From a virus: 25,256 bases of DNA. Made by a program: the position numbers and the translations under genes. This document shows positions 4,348 through 12,941 of the stretch, one piece after another. Location of the stretch: the IMG/VR virus record IMGVR_UViG_3300041809_001779, positions 1 through 25,256 of that record. One strand, given 5' to 3'. Below the pieces are notes generated by a model. That model was not told the origin of the DNA. It did no database searches and worked only from the letters and a program-made list of their open reading frames with translations. How positions within the stretch are numbered: position 1 is the stretch's first letter; each line of letters starts with the position of its first letter.

Positions 4348-5385
4348 TTAGGTTAGCGCCCTCATGTCGAGCTGCAGTGCGTTGATCTGGGCCTGCGTCC
4401 ATGCTGCCACGGTCACTGGGTTCTGCAGGTCCAGCTGCTCCCAGGTAGCGTAGGATCCTCCTGGAGCCTTCGTGGCTCCCGATCCGAAGCCGACAGTGCC
4501 GGCGACGTTATAGCCCAGCTCCAGATGGGCGACGCTCGATCCCGAGCCAACTGCGGCGCGCGCCGCGATCGTCACGGTGTCGGGGTTCCACGTTCCACTG
4601 GGAAGTGAGTTCAGCGCGTACTGCTGGTCATCCCCGTTGTTGTTGTCATAGGTCGGGTTTGCATCGCTGTAGCTGACGCCGTCGATATTCCCGTAAGCGT
4701 CATTTGTCCAGGCGTTGGTGGTGCCCTGCCCCGCCGGTGCAAGCGTTGCCAGCCCCAGGCGCGTCCGCGTGTCGTCGCTCGCCACCATTACTTCTGAGAA
4801 GCACTGGCCATAGACCATAAGGCTGGCCCAGGGCCCGATGACAAAGCAGTCGAAACCGGTGACGCCGCTGAGCGTGAGATCGCCCGTGAAGCTGATGATC
4901 AGGACCTTATTCAGGTAGAGGTTCAGGGTGCCGCTGCTTCCGAAGTTGATCAACTGGAGATCGAACCGCTGGAGACTGGCGAGGCTCAGCGACGCAGCGC
5001 TCTCGGTTGCCAGCTGAGTGAAGGTTGTCCCGTCGTACTTATAAAGAGCAGCCTTCTGCAGTCCCAACTCGGTGTTCGCTGCCGATCCTAGAAAGATCTG
5101 GCCTGCGCCGCTGAACACTCCAAACCCTCCCAGGCTTGGCGGCTGAGTACCCTGAAAGGTATTTTGGCCAGGCACATTGGCCAGCCAGCTTGCCCACCCG
5201 CTGGTAATCGCCCCGCCCCCAAAGCGATTTCCCTTGCACGGGGTTGTCCCCACAGACCAGGGCTGCGGCGCCAGAGCGCAGCGCGCCCAGCCCGAGCGAA
5301 AGCCGCCGCTCGTGACGACGCTCGCCGGATTCGGGCTTCCATTCAGGAAGCTGATATCTTCCCCACCTTGCCAAAGCATCGACAT
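4348..5385 (-). CDS. Adhesin-like beta-sandwich tail protein
   Basis: The 345-residue protein has no family signature I can name with certainty. It is rich in Gly, Ser, Thr, Asn and aromatic residues and poor in charged residues, like secreted beta-sandwich or lectin-type proteins. The middle (about residues 85-205) alternates strands such as LQRFDLQLINFG, GTLNLYLNKVLI and GVTGFDCFVIG. That resembles a concanavalin/LamG-like jelly roll. A second domain follows an Asn/Asp-rich linker (about 235-258). The C-terminal part, about 268-345, again looks like a jelly-roll strand set. The start is well supported: GAGGAG lies 7 nt before the ATG. The location between distal tail genes suggests a tail-surface or receptor-binding role; this is inference. 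Confidence 0.7.
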   Translation of the reverse strand: MSMLWQGGEDISFLNGSPNPASVVTSGGFRSGWARCALAPQPWSVGTTPCKGNRFGGGAITSGWASWLANVPGQNTFQGTQPPSLGGFGVFSGAGQIFLGSAANTELGLQKAALYKYDGTTFTQLATESAASLSLASLQRFDLQLINFGSSGTLNLYLNKVLIISFTGDLTLSGVTGFDCFVIGPWASLMVYGQCFSEVMVASDDTRTRLGLATLAPAGQGTTNAWTNDAYGNIDGVSYSDANPTYDNNNGDDQQYALNSLPSGTWNPDTVTIAARAAVGSGSSVAHLELGYNVAGTVGFGSGATKAPGGSYATWEQLDLQNPVTVAAWTQAQINALQLDMRALT

Positions 5386-5419
5386 CGTTTTCTCCTCACC
5401 GGCTTCAGCCGCTCAGCGC

Positions 5420-5617
5420 TCAGCCCTTCGCCGTTGTCTTCTTCACCTGCTTGGTGTTCAGCACGATCGAGGTTGGCTCCGTGTAGGGCGGCATCGGCAC
5501 CGCGGTAGCCAGCGTCACGTTGCAGTACTCCGCGCCGGGCGATACCTCTTTCACGATGCACGGCACGTTCACCTTGTCCCCCGCCTTCAGCTTCCTGCCC
5601 TTCATATCATGTGGCAT
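5420..5617 (-). CDS. Small beta-rich phage protein, 65 residues
   Basis: The product begins MPHDMKGRKLKAGDKV and continues with alternating strands (NVPCIVKEV, YCNVTLATA) and a KTKQV-like basic end. The order of turns and strands recalls small SH3/KOW-like barrels, and similar short proteins occur in other phage genomes, but I cannot assign a function. A good ribosome site, AAAGGAG, stands 7 nt before the ATG. It lies between a small helical gene and the adhesin-like gene, so it may be a tail-assembly factor or simply a passenger gene. The gap to the next gene (5386-5419) contains a short GC stem and that gene's ribosome site. Confidence 0.7.
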   Translation of the reverse strand: MPHDMKGRKLKAGDKVNVPCIVKEVSPGAEYCNVTLATAVPMPPYTEPTSIVLNTKQVKKTTAKG

Positions 5618-5634
5618 TCTTTCTCTCCTTTGTT

Positions 5635-5838
5635 TTATGGTGTCGCCTTTAGTTCTTCGTCGCGTGCGTCTCGCAGCATCTGATTGAGCTCTGCGAGCTG
5701 CGCCGCGACTTCGGACAGCATCAGCAACTTTGCGAGGTCGACGCTCAGCGCGATAGCGCTTGCATCCTGGGTGATCTTCCCGCCGGTAATGTTGTTGCAG
5801 GTCTCGGACATGGCCGTGCGGATCTGTTCAGCCGTCAT
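5635..5838 (-). CDS. Small helical protein, 67 residues
   Basis: The start chosen is the ATG at 5838, which overlaps the TGA of the upstream tail gene as ATGA and has AAAGGTG upstream. A longer reading of the same frame to 6102 would run through the upstream gene and gives unlikely Arg/His-rich protein. The product (MTAEQIRTAMSETCNN...) has a short N-terminal helix, a polar loop, and then a long amphipathic helix (about residues 27-62, with LLMLSEVAAQLAELNQML) suited to coiled-coil or oligomer contacts. It has no known motif. Position suggests a minor tail or assembly protein. Confidence 0.7.
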   Translation of the reverse strand: MTAEQIRTAMSETCNNITGGKITQDASAIALSVDLAKLLMLSEVAAQLAELNQMLRDARDEELKATP

Positions 5839-6686
5839 CGCATCACCTTTAGTGTGTCGAAAATCACGGTGTATCCGCTCGACGACGAATTCTTCAGGCC
5901 GCTGCACTGCACCTGCACCACATGCTTTCCCAGCGGAACGCTTTGCAGCTGCAGCTGCATTGCCGAGGGCTCGGAGGATGCCGAGTAAAGGTCGACAGTG
6001 CCTTCGTTCACGCCGTCGAGGGTGACAATCGCTTTGCCGTAGCTCGGCCCCGTGGGCATCCACACCTGGCAGCCCCAGCCGATGTAGGCCAGCTGCGCCC
6101 ACTCGCCTGTCACGTTGCTCTGCAGGTCGTAGCCGGCACTCGATCCGTAGATCACCGACATCTCGCTGTTGGCGTCCTGCACCAGCTCCCAGTTGCTGGC
6201 CGTCAACACCGAGGGCTGCTGCTCGCCAAAATCGTTCAGCGTGAAACGCCAGATGGCATCGCCGCTCCAGTCGTCTGGATAGTTCACCATCGGCACGTCA
6301 GGCAGCTCGATGAATCGAACGCCCTGCGCTGACCACCAGAGGTTGGCTACCTCGATGGGCTCGATCGGATCCAGGAAGCGCCCTACGTGATGGCGCGGCA
6401 GCCCGCTGCTGTTCGAGGTGTCGTCATAGTCGATGATGGTGAAGAAGCCGTCGCGGAACTGCTCGCCCCACCGCTTCAGCCGCTTGATGTCGGCATGCAG
6501 CTTGGCGTTTGAGCGCAGCGAGCCCCAGTTCAGCGTGTAGACGTGCATCGCATCAGTCACGTCGCGCATGTAGGGCGGGCCGCCGCTGGCCTTGGCCTCC
6601 AGATGCGTGACCGGACGCTTGCGCTGGAAGCCGTAGTCTGGGTTCAGCTCATCAGTCGCAGTCGGATTGAGGATGTCAGTTTCCAT
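5835..6686 (-). CDS. Distal tail-like protein with C-terminal sugar-binding-type domain
   Basis: This is the first gene after the tape measure, where siphophages encode the distal tail (Dit) or minor tail protein. The 283-residue product shows two parts. Residues about 1-130 have the mixed strand/helix look of small tail-completion proteins (HVYTLNWGSL, a Lys/Arg helix, then FFTIIDYDD). Residues about 160-283 look like a galactose-binding-type beta sandwich: QLAYIGWGCQVWMP, KAIVTLDGVNEGTVDLYS, GKHVVQVQCSG and VIFDTLKV follow the order of strands seen in such domains. The ATG directly follows the tape measure TAG. The role in closing the tail tube is inferred from position, and the added domain would allow surface glycan binding. 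Confidence 0.72.
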   Translation of the reverse strand: METDILNPTATDELNPDYGFQRKRPVTHLEAKASGGPPYMRDVTDAMHVYTLNWGSLRSNAKLHADIKRLKRWGEQFRDGFFTIIDYDDTSNSSGLPRHHVGRFLDPIEPIEVANLWWSAQGVRFIELPDVPMVNYPDDWSGDAIWRFTLNDFGEQQPSVLTASNWELVQDANSEMSVIYGSSAGYDLQSNVTGEWAQLAYIGWGCQVWMPTGPSYGKAIVTLDGVNEGTVDLYSASSEPSAMQLQLQSVPLGKHVVQVQCSGLKNSSSSGYTVIFDTLKVMR

Positions 6687-9600
6687 CTAGCTGCTAAGCG
6701 CCTTTCCTGAATAGCGCGCAGTGTTGCGGTTCAGCTCAGTCTGGATCTGCATGGCGCCGCCACTCCGCAGCCAGCGGCTCACGTCGCGCTGGTCGATGGC
6801 GTGGACGTGCAGGTGAACGTGATTCTCTGACGACGCACCACCGCGGCCACCGGTCGAGCTGCCGCCTCCAGCGCTCAAATAGGTCGAAGCTGAGCCGGTC
6901 TCGCGCGGTGGAGCTCCGGGGGACAGTACGGGTGCGAGTGCCGACGTCAGATCTAGGCCGCGATTCATCGCTTCCAACCATGGAGCGTTCGTCGAGGCAG
7001 CAGCATCGTGCATCATGTACTCGCCCTCGCGCGCGTGGATGAAGCCTTCGCTGTCGCTGGTGGCCAGGTCGAGGAAGTCGTCAACCCACCCGCCGCCGTG
7101 GAACTGCGCAGCCGTGGTGGTCACGTTGTCGCGGCCGGCACGGCCTTCGCGGGTCACCTGGGCTTCCGCATTCGTGATCTCAGGAAGGATGGTGCTGTGG
7201 TAGTAGTCAGCCGCCCCCGAGCCCCACTGGGCCGTCTGCTTCTGGGCCTGGATCTGCAGGTTATTCATGCCCAGCATCGCCGTGTCATAGTCCTGGTACA
7301 TCAGCTGCTGCAGCGCAGGCTCAACCGTCATGGTGTTGTAGTGCCGCGCCTTCGAGCGACCGTGATCACCGATCAGGTCCGCTGTCAACCCGGCCGCGAA
7401 GCCTGCGATCGCGCCGATGGCCGTGCCGATGCCGGGCATGATCGCGGTGCCGATCTCAGCGCCGCCCAGCGCAGTCTCGCCCGCGCCCAGGAGCCCACTG
7501 CCGACGTTCTTGGAGTTCCATGCTGAAGACAGACCGCCCCAGGCGGTCATGCCACCGGTAGCGATCCCACTGATCTCGCCCAGCGCACTGCTGCCCGCGC
7601 TGGCGTTATCGTCTGACGCTGCACCGCTGCCATCCGGCACGGTGCCCATCACGCCAGCTGAATTCGTCGGCGCCTGGTTGATGTCGCTGGGCTGGAACGC
7701 TCCACTGGAATTCAGCAGCTGCCCACCATCGCTGCTTCCCGAAGAGGAGAAGAGCTTAGCGAAGCCCTGATATAGTCCCAGCGTCGAACTGATGGCCGAT
7801 CCGCCAGGAATCATGCTGAGCAGCTGCGGAGAAATCAGCGTCTGACTCAGCCCTCCGACGCCACCGCTGCCGCCCGCTCCGCCTGCGCCGGCGAGGTTGC
7901 CCCCGGCCGCCGTCGCAGACCCAGCGCCCGCTGCCTCTTCGCCGGCAGTCCATGGACCTGGAGCCACATCGTTCTCGTTGTCGCTCTCTGGAGTCCACCC
8001 TCCGGCCGGCGAAGGCATGCCTGCAGTCGCGCCGCCCGAAGTCCATCCGCTGAAGCCGCTGCCCCCCGCGGTGCCACCGCTGCGGTTGTAGAGCGCCGAC
8101 TCCCACATCGTGGCGGCCTGGGCGAGCGCTGCAGCCGAGCTGGCCAGCATCGTCCCTGAAGACGAGAGCGTGGATCCCGCGCTGATCAGCGTGGAGCTCG
8201 CACTGGTCAGTCCCGACTGATCGTGCGTGGCGCCATGCGCGCCGAATAGCTGCCCTAGCGCATGCTGCGGCGATCCTGTGCCCACCTGGTTCAGCCCGAA
8301 CATGGCGCCGAGGGCACCCTGCATCCGCGGATTGTTTTGCTCCGCCTGCTGCAGCCAGTTGGCCATGATGTCGAACATCACCTGCTTGGCCCGCTGCTGC
8401 ATGTACTTCGCAGGGTTGTCAAAGAAGGAGGCGAGCTGGCCCGCCAGGCGATCGCGTTCCTGCATGGTCGCGCGCTCCATCTCGGAATTGGCCACGTCCC
8501 ACGCGGCCTTCACTTGGCGAGCACCTTGCTCTTCGGTCACAACGTGCTGCTCAACGTCCTCGCGAATCTTCTGCAGCCGCTGCTGGTAGTCGTCCTGGAT
8601 TTTCTGCTGGGCCGCTTGCCAGGGAGGCAGCAGCGCGCGCGCGGCTTCAGCTTCGGTCTGCGCGATCTGGCGATCGATGTCGTCAGCCAGCTTTTGCCGC
8701 TCGCGCTCGGCGGCTTCCTCGATCGCGGTCTTCGCGTCCTGGTAGCCTTGCCACTTCGCCTGGTCCGCCCCATAGAACTCTGTGTACGCTCGCCCCAGCT
8801 CGGTCAGCGAGTTCTTCTCGCTCGCAGCCACGCGCGCCAGGCCAGCGGTCATCTGATCATTGGAGCGCTCTGTGATCTGCGCGATCTTCTCAGCGAACTG
8901 CTGCTGGGCTTCCACGATCTGCTGGTTGCCCATCTGCTGATAGGCCGCCGTACGCTTCTTCACTTCCTCGTCAGGCAAGCCGGCGTTGGCTGGGTTCTCG
9001 GTCAGCTCATTGATGCGCGACTGCGTCTCCGCCTGGATCTTGGGAACACCGGTGAGGCCAGCCTGGGTCGCCTGCTCCTGGATCTTCTTGGTCGCGTACT
9101 CTTCTTCCTCCAGGCGCATCATCTTCTGGTTGTGGAACTTCATGTCCAGGTCAGCAGTCTCTTTCAGATAGCCATGCCTGGAGATCTCGCCCTGGGCGTA
9201 CTTCCGGTTTAGCTGCTCGATCGCATCGCTGCGCTGGTGATCGTAAAGCGCTTCGCCCCGCATGCCAGCCTCAATAGCCGCGTTGCGCATCGCGATCTCC
9301 TCTTCGGTCTCCTTCCGCGCCAGGACGAGACGCTGGCCGGCAGCCTCCTGCCGCGCCGCATTGATAGCGGCGCCGCGCTGCTGCTCGAATGCGTGCGGGT
9401 CCGCGGTCTCAAGGGTCTCGCCACTCACATCCTTCCCCGCAGCCTTCATCGCCGCGATGCCATCGTTGTGGATCTTGACCAGGTTCTGCTCTTCCTCTTT
9501 CATGTGGTCATAGCGCTGATTGATCTCAGCGATGGTGTCCTTCTCGTGTGCGGAGGCATGCGCGTAACCCTGCGTGACCGCACTGTTGTAGGCCGCTTGC

Positions 9601-10379
9601 CCGCGCAATCGCTCCTCATCGAGCTGCTGCTGCGTCTGGCGCTTGTGCTCCGTCAGCTTGTCCTGCTTCTCCATCGCCTCAGCCTGGTTCTTGTCGTCTC
9701 TAGCAGTGAACGGACTCTCTCCACTTGGGCCGTTCAAATTTTCGAAGCCCGTGATGTCATAGACGGCATAGTTGTTGCGCTTCTGTTCGAGCACCGTAGC
9801 CTGCTCGGTGATGTCTTTCAGGACATCCCTGGCTTGCTCCAGCGAGGCCGTGTCGAACAGCTTCTGCTCTGCCGCCTGCCCAGCTTTCTCCTGGTACTCG
9901 TCGACGGCCTTGTCCAGGTCGAGCCATTTTTCATATAGCTCCTGGACGCCCTCGACGACTTGCTTACCGATCTCGACAGCGCCCATGGCAAGGAAGCCGC
10001 CCTCCATGGCGCCGATCGCGGTGATGACCGCAGGGCTCTCCGCCAGGAAGGATCGCATCGAGTAACCGAGATTGAGGCCAAACTCCCGGGCCGTGCCGGA
10101 TACCAGGCGCATCTTGCTGTGCATGTGCCCCAGCTGCTCGTTGGCAGGGGGAAGGTGGCCGTGAAAGGAACTCAGGGCCGCGGTGTTCGCCTCGATCGCA
10201 GAGCGCAGCGCGTTGAACTCAGAAGTCGCGGCGCTGCCAGCCGTGCCCAGCCCCTTCATCAGCTGCGTCGTCGAAGAGGCAGCGGTGCCAACGCCCAGGA
10301 TGCGCGTCTCCACCTGCTGCAGCACAGGGCCGCTCTCGTCGATGGTGCGAATGCTGATAGTGATCGAGTCGGCGTCCAT
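6687..10379 (-). CDS. Tape measure protein
   Basis: At 1230 residues this is the longest gene of the block and lies in the tape measure position between the tail-chaperone region and the distal tail genes. Residues about 160-650 are almost wholly charged, Gln/Glu/Arg/Ala-rich helix, as expected for the rod that sets tail length. A hydrophobic helical segment lies at about 105-145. A second, Gly/Ala-rich one (GTAIMPGIGTAIGAIAGFAA) lies near 1000. Between them is a Gly/Ser-rich linker from about 720 to 960. The C-terminus has HVHLHVHAID, common in tape measures. I see no lytic enzyme motif. As a rule of thumb of about 1.5 angstroms per residue, the tail would be near 180 nm, an estimate only. 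The start overlaps the upstream stop as TGATG. Confidence 0.93.
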   Translation of the reverse strand: MDADSITISIRTIDESGPVLQQVETRILGVGTAASSTTQLMKGLGTAGSAATSEFNALRSAIEANTAALSSFHGHLPPANEQLGHMHSKMRLVSGTAREFGLNLGYSMRSFLAESPAVITAIGAMEGGFLAMGAVEIGKQVVEGVQELYEKWLDLDKAVDEYQEKAGQAAEQKLFDTASLEQARDVLKDITEQATVLEQKRNNYAVYDITGFENLNGPSGESPFTARDDKNQAEAMEKQDKLTEHKRQTQQQLDEERLRGQAAYNSAVTQGYAHASAHEKDTIAEINQRYDHMKEEEQNLVKIHNDGIAAMKAAGKDVSGETLETADPHAFEQQRGAAINAARQEAAGQRLVLARKETEEEIAMRNAAIEAGMRGEALYDHQRSDAIEQLNRKYAQGEISRHGYLKETADLDMKFHNQKMMRLEEEEYATKKIQEQATQAGLTGVPKIQAETQSRINELTENPANAGLPDEEVKKRTAAYQQMGNQQIVEAQQQFAEKIAQITERSNDQMTAGLARVAASEKNSLTELGRAYTEFYGADQAKWQGYQDAKTAIEEAAERERQKLADDIDRQIAQTEAEAARALLPPWQAAQQKIQDDYQQRLQKIREDVEQHVVTEEQGARQVKAAWDVANSEMERATMQERDRLAGQLASFFDNPAKYMQQRAKQVMFDIMANWLQQAEQNNPRMQGALGAMFGLNQVGTGSPQHALGQLFGAHGATHDQSGLTSASSTLISAGSTLSSSGTMLASSAAALAQAATMWESALYNRSGGTAGGSGFSGWTSGGATAGMPSPAGGWTPESDNENDVAPGPWTAGEEAAGAGSATAAGGNLAGAGGAGGSGGVGGLSQTLISPQLLSMIPGGSAISSTLGLYQGFAKLFSSSGSSDGGQLLNSSGAFQPSDINQAPTNSAGVMGTVPDGSGAASDDNASAGSSALGEISGIATGGMTAWGGLSSAWNSKNVGSGLLGAGETALGGAEIGTAIMPGIGTAIGAIAGFAAGLTADLIGDHGRSKARHYNTMTVEPALQQLMYQDYDTAMLGMNNLQIQAQKQTAQWGSGAADYYHSTILPEITNAEAQVTREGRAGRDNVTTTAAQFHGGGWVDDFLDLATSDSEGFIHAREGEYMMHDAAASTNAPWLEAMNRGLDLTSALAPVLSPGAPPRETGSASTYLSAGGGSSTGGRGGASSENHVHLHVHAIDQRDVSRWLRSGGAMQIQTELNRNTARYSGKALSS

Positions 10380-10777
10380 CAGTTCCTCTTGAACTCTGCT
10401 CCACAGCTATGGCACTGCAAGGCGTCGCGCGTGTCCTGTCGCTCACCACACTGCCAGCACGGCGGGTGCTTACTTTCGAATTCATTGCGCGCCGCCTTCA
10501 GAAGGGCCAGGCCGTTCGCCTCGAAGGCTGTGGCATCTGGAAGCGATGCTCCCACTGCTTCCAGCCCAGCTGCAAGCCAGATCAGATAGTCGCCCAGCAA
10601 GTAATAAGCCGGACTCAGTTCGCGCTCGGGCATCTGCTGTACCAGGCGCTCGCGCGTAGCGTCGCTCGCCGAATCGAGATTCGATTGGATGCGATGAAAA
10701 GCCAGGCTCTCCTCCATCAGGTGAAGCAGAGCCTGCTTCAGCCCATCGCGGTCGCGCCCTGGATCGAATGACGACAA
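10379..10777 (-). CDS. Helical protein with C-terminal zinc ribbon
   Basis: The 132-residue product is helical over residues 1-100. It ends in a four-cysteine zinc knuckle: C107 and C110, then C122 and C125, in the pattern CWQC...CHSCG. The start is TTG at 10777: GGAGG stands 9 nt upstream, a strong ribosome site, and no ATG is available before codon 21. The gene lies directly before the tape measure, where siphophages usually encode the second tail-assembly chaperone. Its frame is +1 relative to the preceding gene and stays open about 14 codons into it. A programmed frameshift is therefore possible, though the separate ribosome site argues for normal initiation. A zinc ribbon is not typical of tail chaperones, so the function is uncertain. 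Confidence 0.75.
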   Translation of the reverse strand: MSSFDPGRDRDGLKQALLHLMEESLAFHRIQSNLDSASDATRERLVQQMPERELSPAYYLLGDYLIWLAAGLEAVGASLPDATAFEANGLALLKAARNEFESKHPPCWQCGERQDTRDALQCHSCGAEFKRN

Positions 10778-10781
10778 GTCG

Positions 10782-11543
10782 CTAGACCTCCGCTTGCCCG
10801 AATAGTTGCCGGGTGGCGATCACCTTGTGGTGCGCGTCCATGTACTGCACGATGTGCCCCGGCGCGCTCAGGTCATCGTCGCCATAGCAGTAGCCTTCGA
10901 CGCCCTGGATGAGCTCATCGTAGATTTTGATCAGGGTGGGCTGCGAGCCCATCCAGACCGTCTTGCCAGTACGCGATCCGCCGATGACCTTGGAGCGGCC
11001 GCTGTCGCGCCGATACTTCCGCTCGTGGTCGAAGCTGGGCTCTTTGAACTTGTGCACCAGCCGGGGATAGCGCTCCATGTTGCCCTTGTCGTCGGCGTTC
11101 CACAGCGATTCGATCTCGACACTGCGATCGCCGCCCAGGCAAACCACTTCGCCATCCTCGGTGGAGGGCGCCGCGCTGGTCAGCACCGTGCCGATCGCCA
11201 TGCGATGCCCCATGGGAATCTTCTGTTTCCAGCCTTCCAGCGATGAGACTGTCTGATCGCCTGGAGTTTTGTAGCCCCAGGCCGAGATGAGTAGATCTTC
11301 GACCAGCGACAACAGGGCGCTCCCAGCGTCGATGGTGTTGAACTGCTCGCGGCCGCGGGTCTCTGAGCTTGACTCAATGCTCTGGAAGTATGTCAGCCAG
11401 CGGTCGCCGGTCACGGGCTTCAACAAGAAGCGGTAGAGCACTGCACGGTCGCGAATGGCAATGTGCCGCTCACTTGCGAGGTCGAGCAACGGCAGGGGCG
11501 GATCGTTTATCGGCAAAGTCCTGAGCAGTTTGTGGGTGTCCAT
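10782..11543 (-). CDS. Putative tail-assembly protein, 253 residues
   Basis: I do not recognise this family. The gene lies between the tail tube (with the Acb2-like gene in between) and the zinc-ribbon gene plus tape measure, the place of tail-assembly chaperones. The product is mixed alpha/beta with a helical middle (residues about 70-90, DAGSALLSLVEDLLISAWG). The C-terminal half is conserved-looking and charged, with FDHERKYRRDSGRSK at 171-185. Residues 188-195, GGSRTGKT, fit the P-loop pattern G-x4-G-K-T and are preceded by a short hydrophobic strand. No Walker B motif is evident, so nucleotide binding is unproven. GAGAAGG stands just before the ATG. Stop and next start are separated by 4 nt. 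Confidence 0.7.
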   Translation of the reverse strand: MDTHKLLRTLPINDPPLPLLDLASERHIAIRDRAVLYRFLLKPVTGDRWLTYFQSIESSSETRGREQFNTIDAGSALLSLVEDLLISAWGYKTPGDQTVSSLEGWKQKIPMGHRMAIGTVLTSAAPSTEDGEVVCLGGDRSVEIESLWNADDKGNMERYPRLVHKFKEPSFDHERKYRRDSGRSKVIGGSRTGKTVWMGSQPTLIKIYDELIQGVEGYCYGDDDLSAPGHIVQYMDAHHKVIATRQLFGQAEV

Positions 11544-11633: not shown

Positions 11634-11659
11634 CCGCGCTGAGTAGTTGATCAGCGCGG
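11634..11659 (-). promoter_or_regulatory. Strong GC-rich hairpin just after the Acb2-like gene
   Basis: Perfect 9-bp arms CCGCGCTGA and TCAGCGCGG flank an 8-nt loop, starting 10 nt past the stop codon of the Acb2-like gene. The T-run of an intrinsic terminator is missing. It may be an mRNA 3'-end stabiliser, a processing site or a partial terminator. Confidence 0.65.
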
Positions 11660-11669
11660 GTTGCCGCCG

Positions 11670-11876
11670 CTAAAGTTTGCCGCCGAGCGCGATCGCCGCG
11701 TTCGCCGTCATCACCGCATCGCGCACATGCCGCACCGCGGTGGTCTGGTCAGGGCAAGGCGGTGTCAGCTCCACGATGGTCTCCGCGAAGGCAAGCGCTG
11801 CCGCGCGGAGCTTCTCGTATTTGACCACCTGCTCCGGCGTCGGAGGATGGTGGCGGAAGATCTCTTTCAGGTCCAT
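11670..11876 (-). CDS. acb2: Acb2/Tad1-family protein, candidate anti-CBASS cyclic-nucleotide sponge
   Basis: The 68-residue product matches the pattern I know for Acb2/Tad1-domain proteins (T4 Vs.4 relatives). A short N-terminal segment ends in F-R-H-H-P-P-T-P-E-Q (residues 7-16). Helix K-Y-E-K-L-R-A-A-A (19-27) follows, then a Pro/Cys/Asp turn (39-43). The last helix is T-A-V-R-H-V-R-D-A-V-M-T-A-N-A-A-I-A (46-63), with the family's characteristic ANAAIA end. Members of this family form oligomers that sequester cyclic oligonucleotide signals made by CBASS (and related) immune systems. The start chosen is ATG 11876, 9 nt after GAGGTG; ATG 11885 and GTG 11888 are alternatives. The gene has no structural role that I can see and is bracketed by inverted repeats, so it looks like an accessory gene inside the tail operon. 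Which nucleotides it binds cannot be told here. Confidence 0.8.
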   Translation of the reverse strand: MDLKEIFRHHPPTPEQVVKYEKLRAAALAFAETIVELTPPCPDQTTAVRHVRDAVMTANAAIALGGKL

Positions 11877-11894
11877 CTGAAACATCACCTCTGA

Positions 11895-11920
11895 AATATA
11901 TGTCTAGAGAAACATATATT
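11895..11920. promoter_or_regulatory. Perfect AT-rich inverted repeat before the Acb2-like gene
   Basis: Arms AATATATGT and ACATATATT (9 bp, perfect) flank the 8-nt spacer CTAGAGAA in the 57-bp gap between tail tube stop and Acb2-like start. The site is strikingly AT-rich for this sequence. It could be an operator for a dimeric repressor or an RNA hairpin just ahead of the ribosome site. I find no convincing -35/-10 pair at normal spacing. Confidence 0.65.
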
Positions 11921-11933
11921 CTGGAGTCATACA

Positions 11934-12941
11934 TTACACGGCCGTCAGGTACGCCGCCACGCTATTGGTGACGGAGGCAGTCGCCACGCCCGCGCCACCG
12001 ATGTTGTACATGCAGGTCTCGTCGGCCGAGATCTTCCAGATGATCATGTTCTCCTCGGCGCCGATCTGCACTGCCTTCAGCTTGAATGCCGGGAAGTTCA
12101 CGTCCATCTCAGCCGCAGCACCGGAGTTGGTGCTCAGGTCCAGGAATGAAAGTGTATCGTTCTCGATCAGCGTCAGGATGTCGTCGGTCGACTGCGCCGC
12201 GATTACCAGGTCGAAGCTGATCTTGCGCAGCCCCAGCCGCATGCCGTAGCCATAGAGACCATTCCCTGGCCCAGTGTGGCTCACCGCACCCGTGGAGAAC
12301 TTCACGCTGCCGGAGCGTACCCGGCTACTGATAACCGCTCCGCTGCCCACCGGCCCCAGCGTGACGGTCGTGTCGGAGTTCAGCAAATACGTCGGTTGCG
12401 CCACCGCCGGCAGGCTGGCGATCGCACCATCCGTCCAGTGCCCGCAGCCGGCCATCATGATGTCGATCTTGATGGCGCTCTTCTGCGCATAGCTCATCGT
12501 GAACTCGGTGATGGCCATGTCCTGGTACTTGGTTTTGATGGCGGCGGTGTCTTCGACGTAGACGTTCGTCATCATCGCCTTCGTGGTCGTCTCTTCGATG
12601 GTGAAGTCGTGCACATAGGGACCGCTCCCGGTCACCGTGTCCGTTCCCCAGGCGAAGGCGAACATCCAGCCCAGGGTGAAGCCCTCGGCCTCCATGCCTT
12701 TCAGCTCGCCCTTGGTATCCCACAGCGTCTCTTGGCCCTCGGTCGCGAATTCAGTCCCCTTGCCGGCCTGGTCCTTGTCGCTGCGCCGGCTGGGAATGCG
12801 CTCCCAGACCGAGGTGCCGTCAAAGCGCTGCCGCTGAGTGAACTTGTTGTCAGCGAAGAGATCGTTGGAACTGGCCTGGCTGTTGATGCTCAGACACACA
12901 TTCCGGGCTGTTCGTTTCTGGGATTCAAATAGGACGGCCAT
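11934..12941 (-). CDS. Major tail tube protein
   Basis: The 335-residue protein has the composition and order of a siphophage tail tube subunit: long beta-strand stretches, few cysteines, acidic loops. Examples are LKGMEAEGFTLGWMFAFAWG, VHDFTIEETTTKAMMTNVYVED, RSGSVKFSTGAVSH and MRLGLRKISFDLVIAAQS. Similar long tube proteins (about 300-350 residues) exist in phages whose tails lack a sheath. The start overlaps the upstream stop as TAATG, with GAGGAG 8 nt before. It follows the head-completion genes and precedes the tape measure region, the usual place. No sheath gene lies before it, unlike Mu. A tail-tube-like minor protein is a remote alternative. Confidence 0.82.
   Translation of the reverse strand: MAVLFESQKRTARNVCLSINSQASSNDLFADNKFTQRQRFDGTSVWERIPSRRSDKDQAGKGTEFATEGQETLWDTKGELKGMEAEGFTLGWMFAFAWGTDTVTGSGPYVHDFTIEETTTKAMMTNVYVEDTAAIKTKYQDMAITEFTMSYAQKSAIKIDIMMAGCGHWTDGAIASLPAVAQPTYLLNSDTTVTLGPVGSGAVISSRVRSGSVKFSTGAVSHTGPGNGLYGYGMRLGLRKISFDLVIAAQSTDDILTLIENDTLSFLDLSTNSGAAAEMDVNFPAFKLKAVQIGAEENMIIWKISADETCMYNIGGAGVATASVTNSVAAYLTAV

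Follow-up and report, generated by a model that had tools for sequence, protein, structure and literature searches.

A putative Acb2-type cyclic-nucleotide sponge encoded in the tail operon of a Mu-like phage

Can a gene of 68 codons, lodged among the tail genes of a phage, encode a sponge for the nucleotide signals of host defence, and why would such a gene be carried where expression is expected to be late? The question arose from a 25,256-nucleotide viral stretch (IMG/VR record IMGVR_UViG_3300041809_001779, positions 1 to 25,256; hereafter the window), in which a sequence-only reading had proposed an Acb2/Tad1-family anti-immune gene between tail tube and tail-chaperone genes. From the analyses below, we consider it probable that its product is a cyclic-nucleotide sponge of the Acb2 type, which a Mu-like phage carries as an accessory within its late operon and would make together with virion products able to trigger defence.

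The gene, its family and its predicted fold

The acb2-like gene lies on the minus strand, from an ATG at 11876 to a stop at 11670-11672, and the translation of 11670-11876 is MDLKEIFRHHPPTPEQVVKYEKLRAAALAFAETIVELTPPCPDQTTAVRHVRDAVMTANAAIALGGKL followed by the stop (68 aa). Reading the same positions on the plus strand gave an unrelated sequence, in which nothing was found. A Shine-Dalgarno-like AGAGGTG is located at 11886..11892 (minus strand), 9 nt before the ATG, and the start position is common to relatives such as those in records L003, L016 and L019. The coordinates proposed from sequence only, given at the time without a strand, were borne out, and the three motifs quoted with them were found letter for letter at residues 10-16, 19-25 and 46-63. 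Matches to Pfam PF24729 (E 1.9e-12) and PHROG 1454 (function unknown; E 1.2e-14), together with 137 relatives in IMG/VR, mark the gene as more than a chance reading frame. Low dN/dS, well under 1 in most close relative pairs (e.g. dN 0.013/dS 0.65 and 0.05/0.76), indicates a real gene under purifying selection; the exception was one pair (L062/L080) with a ratio near 1 at very low divergence.

The PF24729 match, to the Acb2/Tad1 hairpin, spans residues 9-63 and scores 47.6 bits, some 20 bits above the curated cut-off of 27 bits, and has no second occurrence in the 25-kb record. The same model also matches T4 Acb2 (Vs.4; E 7.1e-20) and one protein of phage PaP2, tying both to this group. An AlphaFold2 model of the single chain, built from 60 window and IMG/VR sequences, reached a pLDDT of 95.6 and comprises helices at residues 3-6, 14-37 and 42-64 with no strand, a layout equal to that of the published Acb2 protomer, in which a short helix is combined with two long antiparallel ones (PMC10419184). 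Foldseek comparison with the PDB ranked T4 Vs.4 (7uq2) first and second (TM 0.70) at E-values of 2.3-3.0, not significant for a two-helix hairpin, and Acb2 8h2x eighteenth; across these Acb2 matches E-values spanned 2.3 to 6.3, and for this model the PDB comparison lends support by rank, not by significance. Against BFVD, all of the first six matches and the majority of the first 20 bore the name of Acb2/Tad1 hairpin proteins. The best match had E 1.5e-4 and TM 0.90, and those ranking highest included proteins from Mycobacterium phage Phabba and Lactococcus phage 1706. Searches of the PDB with phmmer (single protein) and hmmsearch (60-row profile) recovered no Acb2 or Tad1 chain, and the link to the solved Acb2 proteins therefore comes from Pfam and the fold. 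Alignment to T4 Acb2 alone by hhalign gave a very low score (probability 1%), and an NCBIfam search of the protein returned no family.

Tad1 has, by Pfam definition, the same hairpin as its C-terminal domain, but adds an N-terminal antiparallel beta sheet (PMC12043709), whereas the window protein has no strand and only 13 residues ahead of its first long helix. Because it has the Acb2 protomer layout and lacks the Tad1 beta domain, we file it as an Acb2-type hairpin member; of the joint Acb2/Tad1 label, the first half stands on PF24729, the modelled layout and the fold ranks, and the second finds no support. The absence of a profile match combined with a fold unlike Acb2 had been named as grounds for dropping the idea, and the proposed profile search instead returned a significant match and the model an Acb2-like layout. 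As far as the hairpin domain and the Acb2 architecture go, the predicted family membership is ordinary and well supported by profile and model. With Acb2 of T4 (Vs.4, PDB 7uq2) and of Pseudomonas phage PaP2/PaMx33 (PDB 8h2j/8h2x), the protein has in common PF24729, the short and two long helices and its form as a small stand-alone phage protein, and T4 Acb2 takes the top PDB fold ranks, at non-significant E-values. It differs in length (68 aa compared with 88-93 aa), in that the solved chains are unmatched by this group's sequence profile, and at the residues considered below.

Hairpin proteins from Gordonia, Mycobacterium, Lactococcus, Paenibacillus and Tunturiibacter phages are 33-47% identical over most of their length, but their genes sit beside portal and RNA ligase genes (Gordonia) or small unnamed genes (Tunturi_1) and are usually annotated as hypothetical. 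Several members are annotated as 'phosphomannomutase' in GenBank (KT151955 78971-79177; Paenibacillus larvae phages Vegas, Hayley and Diane), which looks like a propagated naming error. Two relatives are extended: a 302-aa frame in L015 (7992-8897) joins an N-terminal acb2 hairpin to about 230 residues that have no Pfam match and contain two stretches similar by eye, possibly a fusion protein or a missing stop, and in L057 (5646-6026) the hairpin is preceded by about 65 in-frame residues with a Cys/His zinc-finger-like pattern and no Pfam match.

Tail-operon setting and accessory distribution

A 37.8-kb record (L002) has 16.2 kb in common with the window (100% identity), and its other half encodes a Mu-type transposase (PHROG 310, E 3.8e-76), a transposition protein, a regulator and an endolysin. 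The window itself encodes Mu-type portal, F-like and gp36-like genes and represents the late half of a transposable phage of the Mu type. That phage is known from metagenomes only. Searching named phages for a similar tail tube gave none, as did searching bacterial genomes for prophage relatives of the downstream neighbour gene. The putative sponge gene has relatives in MAGs that carry the labels Acidobacteria, Planctomycetes, Chloroflexi (Ardenticatenales) and Proteobacteria. Among named phages, the protein is matched best in acidobacterial phage Tunturi_1.

Upstream of the acb2-like gene lies the tail tube gene (11934..12941, minus strand; PF18906, E 1.6e-7). Downstream, also on the minus strand, follow a 253-aa gene conserved in the tail module (10782..11543), for which homologues but no Pfam or PHROG match were found, a conserved 132-aa protein with a weak C-terminal zinc-ribbon match in Pfam (10379..10777), and a probable tape measure gene of 1230 aa, called by size and position (6687..10379). 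The proposed placement between tail tube and chaperones accordingly holds on the tube side, whereas the 'chaperones' match no family and owe that name to position. Elsewhere in this otherwise tightly packed late operon, a 449-base stretch (5386-5834) has no called gene; the segment that ranks second in AT content within the window lies in it, at about 5601.

To compare tail modules, homologues of the tube gene and the gene after it were collected. The acb2 gene lies between the two in the window and L002 and in L043, L045 and L048, and is absent from the junction in the other records that show both genes; L109 ends after the tube gene. When 15 junction-negative records were searched whole, acb2 was found elsewhere in one (L091) and in none of the remaining 14, several of which are fragments. 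In the tail-module tree the window groups with L091 and L108, and L045 and L048 with L110, none of these three partners having acb2 at the site. The tree requires two changes, a single clade of carriers being rejected (p-AU 7e-61), and it would be compatible with gene gain on two occasions or with a single gain and several losses. The acb2 gene tree has too few columns to decide and does not reject a single origin of the tail-operon copies; on these trees, carriers are set apart by the tail module alone and not by the acb2 gene tree. Since the junction is without the gene in most phages that share the module, and the tree needs two changes, we regard it as an accessory 'moron' and not a tail part.

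In many unrelated phages, acb2 adjoins terminase, portal, methyltransferase, primase, polymerase or queuosine genes, and with neighbours of so many classes it behaves as a mobile accessory gene. The closest relative (72%) belongs to an unrelated phage (L003). There it sits among queuosine and GTP cyclohydrolase genes (4432-9276).

Putative ligand site and expression signals

Two segments of the protein are conserved: an N-terminal loop at codons 7-12, F-R-H-H-P-P (11841..11858, minus strand), as seen by hhalign with T4 Vs.4 and in the relatives' alignment, and the nearly invariant end of the last helix at codons 56-63, M-T-A-N-A-A-I-A (11688..11711, minus strand), as seen in the relatives' alignment. 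All 13 positions that are invariant in that alignment are kept in the 68-aa protein; F7 and P12 are invariant, Arg24 is kept in 70/72 proteins, and Asp43, Arg49 and Arg52 in 71/72 each. In the weak hhalign alignment with Vs.4, Tyr8 of T4 Acb2 falls on His9. Position 9 is Tyr in 64 and His in 8 of the 72 aligned proteins (the window protein and 7 of the 71 others), the His being scattered among relatives without marking one group. Phe82 of T4 Acb2, which stacks on the ligand there, sits two positions past the end of this weak alignment; ungapped extension would place it on the invariant Ala63 of the window protein, in the conserved MTANAAIA end. By these alignments, the putative ligand site is conserved inside the group yet differs from the T4 site. 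In the literature consulted, we found no ligand-binding data and no functional test for this subgroup.

The spacer between the tube and acb2 genes is 57 nt long in the window, coincides with the 60 bases of lowest GC content in the record (32% GC vs 62%) and holds a perfect 9+9 dyad, AATATATGT-8-ACATATATT, at 11895..11920, a possible operator or promoter region. Neither the rest of the window nor the genome's other half has another copy of this dyad. About 10 nt past the stop, a perfect 9-bp GC-rich hairpin with no T run (11634..11659, minus strand; RNA fold z -3.05) is possibly an attenuator or a site of RNA processing. The 25 kb contain just four perfect 9-bp dyads, and these two flank the gene. 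A scan for sigma-70 sites and terminators found no consensus promoter or T-tailed terminator for the gene on the minus strand. In L043, L045 and L048 the tube-acb2 gap is only 14-15 nt and is accompanied by a strong ribosome site, suggesting that acb2 is transcribed as part of the late operon.

Rival readings and proposed function

The substitution at position 9 raises the prospect of the same family with a changed ligand, in which His9 proteins would bind the usual cyclic dinucleotides poorly and be tuned to cyclic trinucleotides (the trimer-interface site) or gcADPR, or would avoid Panoptes-type guards. In T4 Acb2, Y8A abolishes cyclic-dinucleotide binding (PMC12657218), and the dinucleotide and trinucleotide sites of Acb2 are independent of each other (PMC12043709), both of which would fit such a shift. 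His can also stack on a base, however, the residue mapping depends on the weak alignment and the substitution singles out no one group; we regard a changed ligand as possible, if on the whole unlikely. Read more severely, the replaced ligand residue and the missing match to solved Acb2 sequences could be signs of a decayed, functionless remnant, but an open frame, a good ribosome site, the retained invariant positions, low dN/dS among relatives and a confidently predicted fold leave that reading a very slim chance.

The gene's position bears on two further alternatives. A small tail-assembly or virion protein sharing just a helical hairpin with Acb2 would account for a gene set between the tail tube and the next tail-module gene, at a junction also occupied in L043, L045 and L048. 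Its absence from most relatives of the tail module led us to reject a tail function, and with the closest relative among queuosine genes and other relatives beside genes of many classes we consider it highly improbable. The sponge could alternatively be a moron regulated separately from its own promoter instead of a plain late-operon gene. The AT-rich dyad upstream and the GC-rich hairpin downstream speak for this, but the minus strand lacks a sigma-70-like site and a T-tailed terminator, and the short gap and strong ribosome site of the tail-operon relatives favour the plain arrangement; as no consensus promoter or terminator was found, we entertain separate regulation only tentatively.

Under the preferred reading, an accessory Acb2-type sponge, the 68-residue helical hairpin would assemble as a hexamer by analogy with Acb2, whose hexamer has three dinucleotide and two trinucleotide sites; the window protein was modelled as a single chain. 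Such a hexamer would bind, but not degrade, the cyclic oligonucleotide signals of CBASS-like or related host defences, and with the signal sequestered the defence effector would stay off. The gene would have been acquired by this phage lineage as an accessory outside the tail structure, and its position in the late operon would allow the sponge to be produced together with virion proteins able to trigger defence.

Late expression had been called unusual for a protein expected to act early, an objection that is weakened by relatives lying beside terminase, portal and other virion genes and by the triggers that have been published. Thoeris can be triggered by the major head protein (PMC11312562), a CBASS sensor is triggered by the prohead protease (reviewed in PMC12409349), CdnE03 responds to RNA from terminase genes (PMC10686824), and a capsid mutation aids CBASS escape by an acb2-deleted phage (PMC10419184). 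All of these trace back to genes for virion or packaging functions, and because several of the triggers are themselves late products, a late position of the gene is no paradox and making the sponge alongside such products would be sensible. The further suggestion that the gene implies a nucleotide-signal defence in the host goes too far. A broader proposal, which we put forward as rather doubtful, is that the branch marked by F-x-Y/H-H-x-P and MTANAAIA, widespread in environmental phages, binds other signals than T4 Acb2 and has been repeatedly inserted in late operons for co-production with triggers.

The Acb2/Tad1 family was already known; what is described here is a divergent branch whose gene occupies, separately in two lineages, one and the same position within related tail operons. 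With it, the Acb2 type gains a compact and divergent group, apparently common, from environmental phages that have been little studied. A single tail junction that occurs both with the gene and empty provides a clean natural case for asking when a sponge must be made. Ultimately, if sponge genes travel with the virion genes that act as triggers, their operon position would be a clue to what the defence senses.
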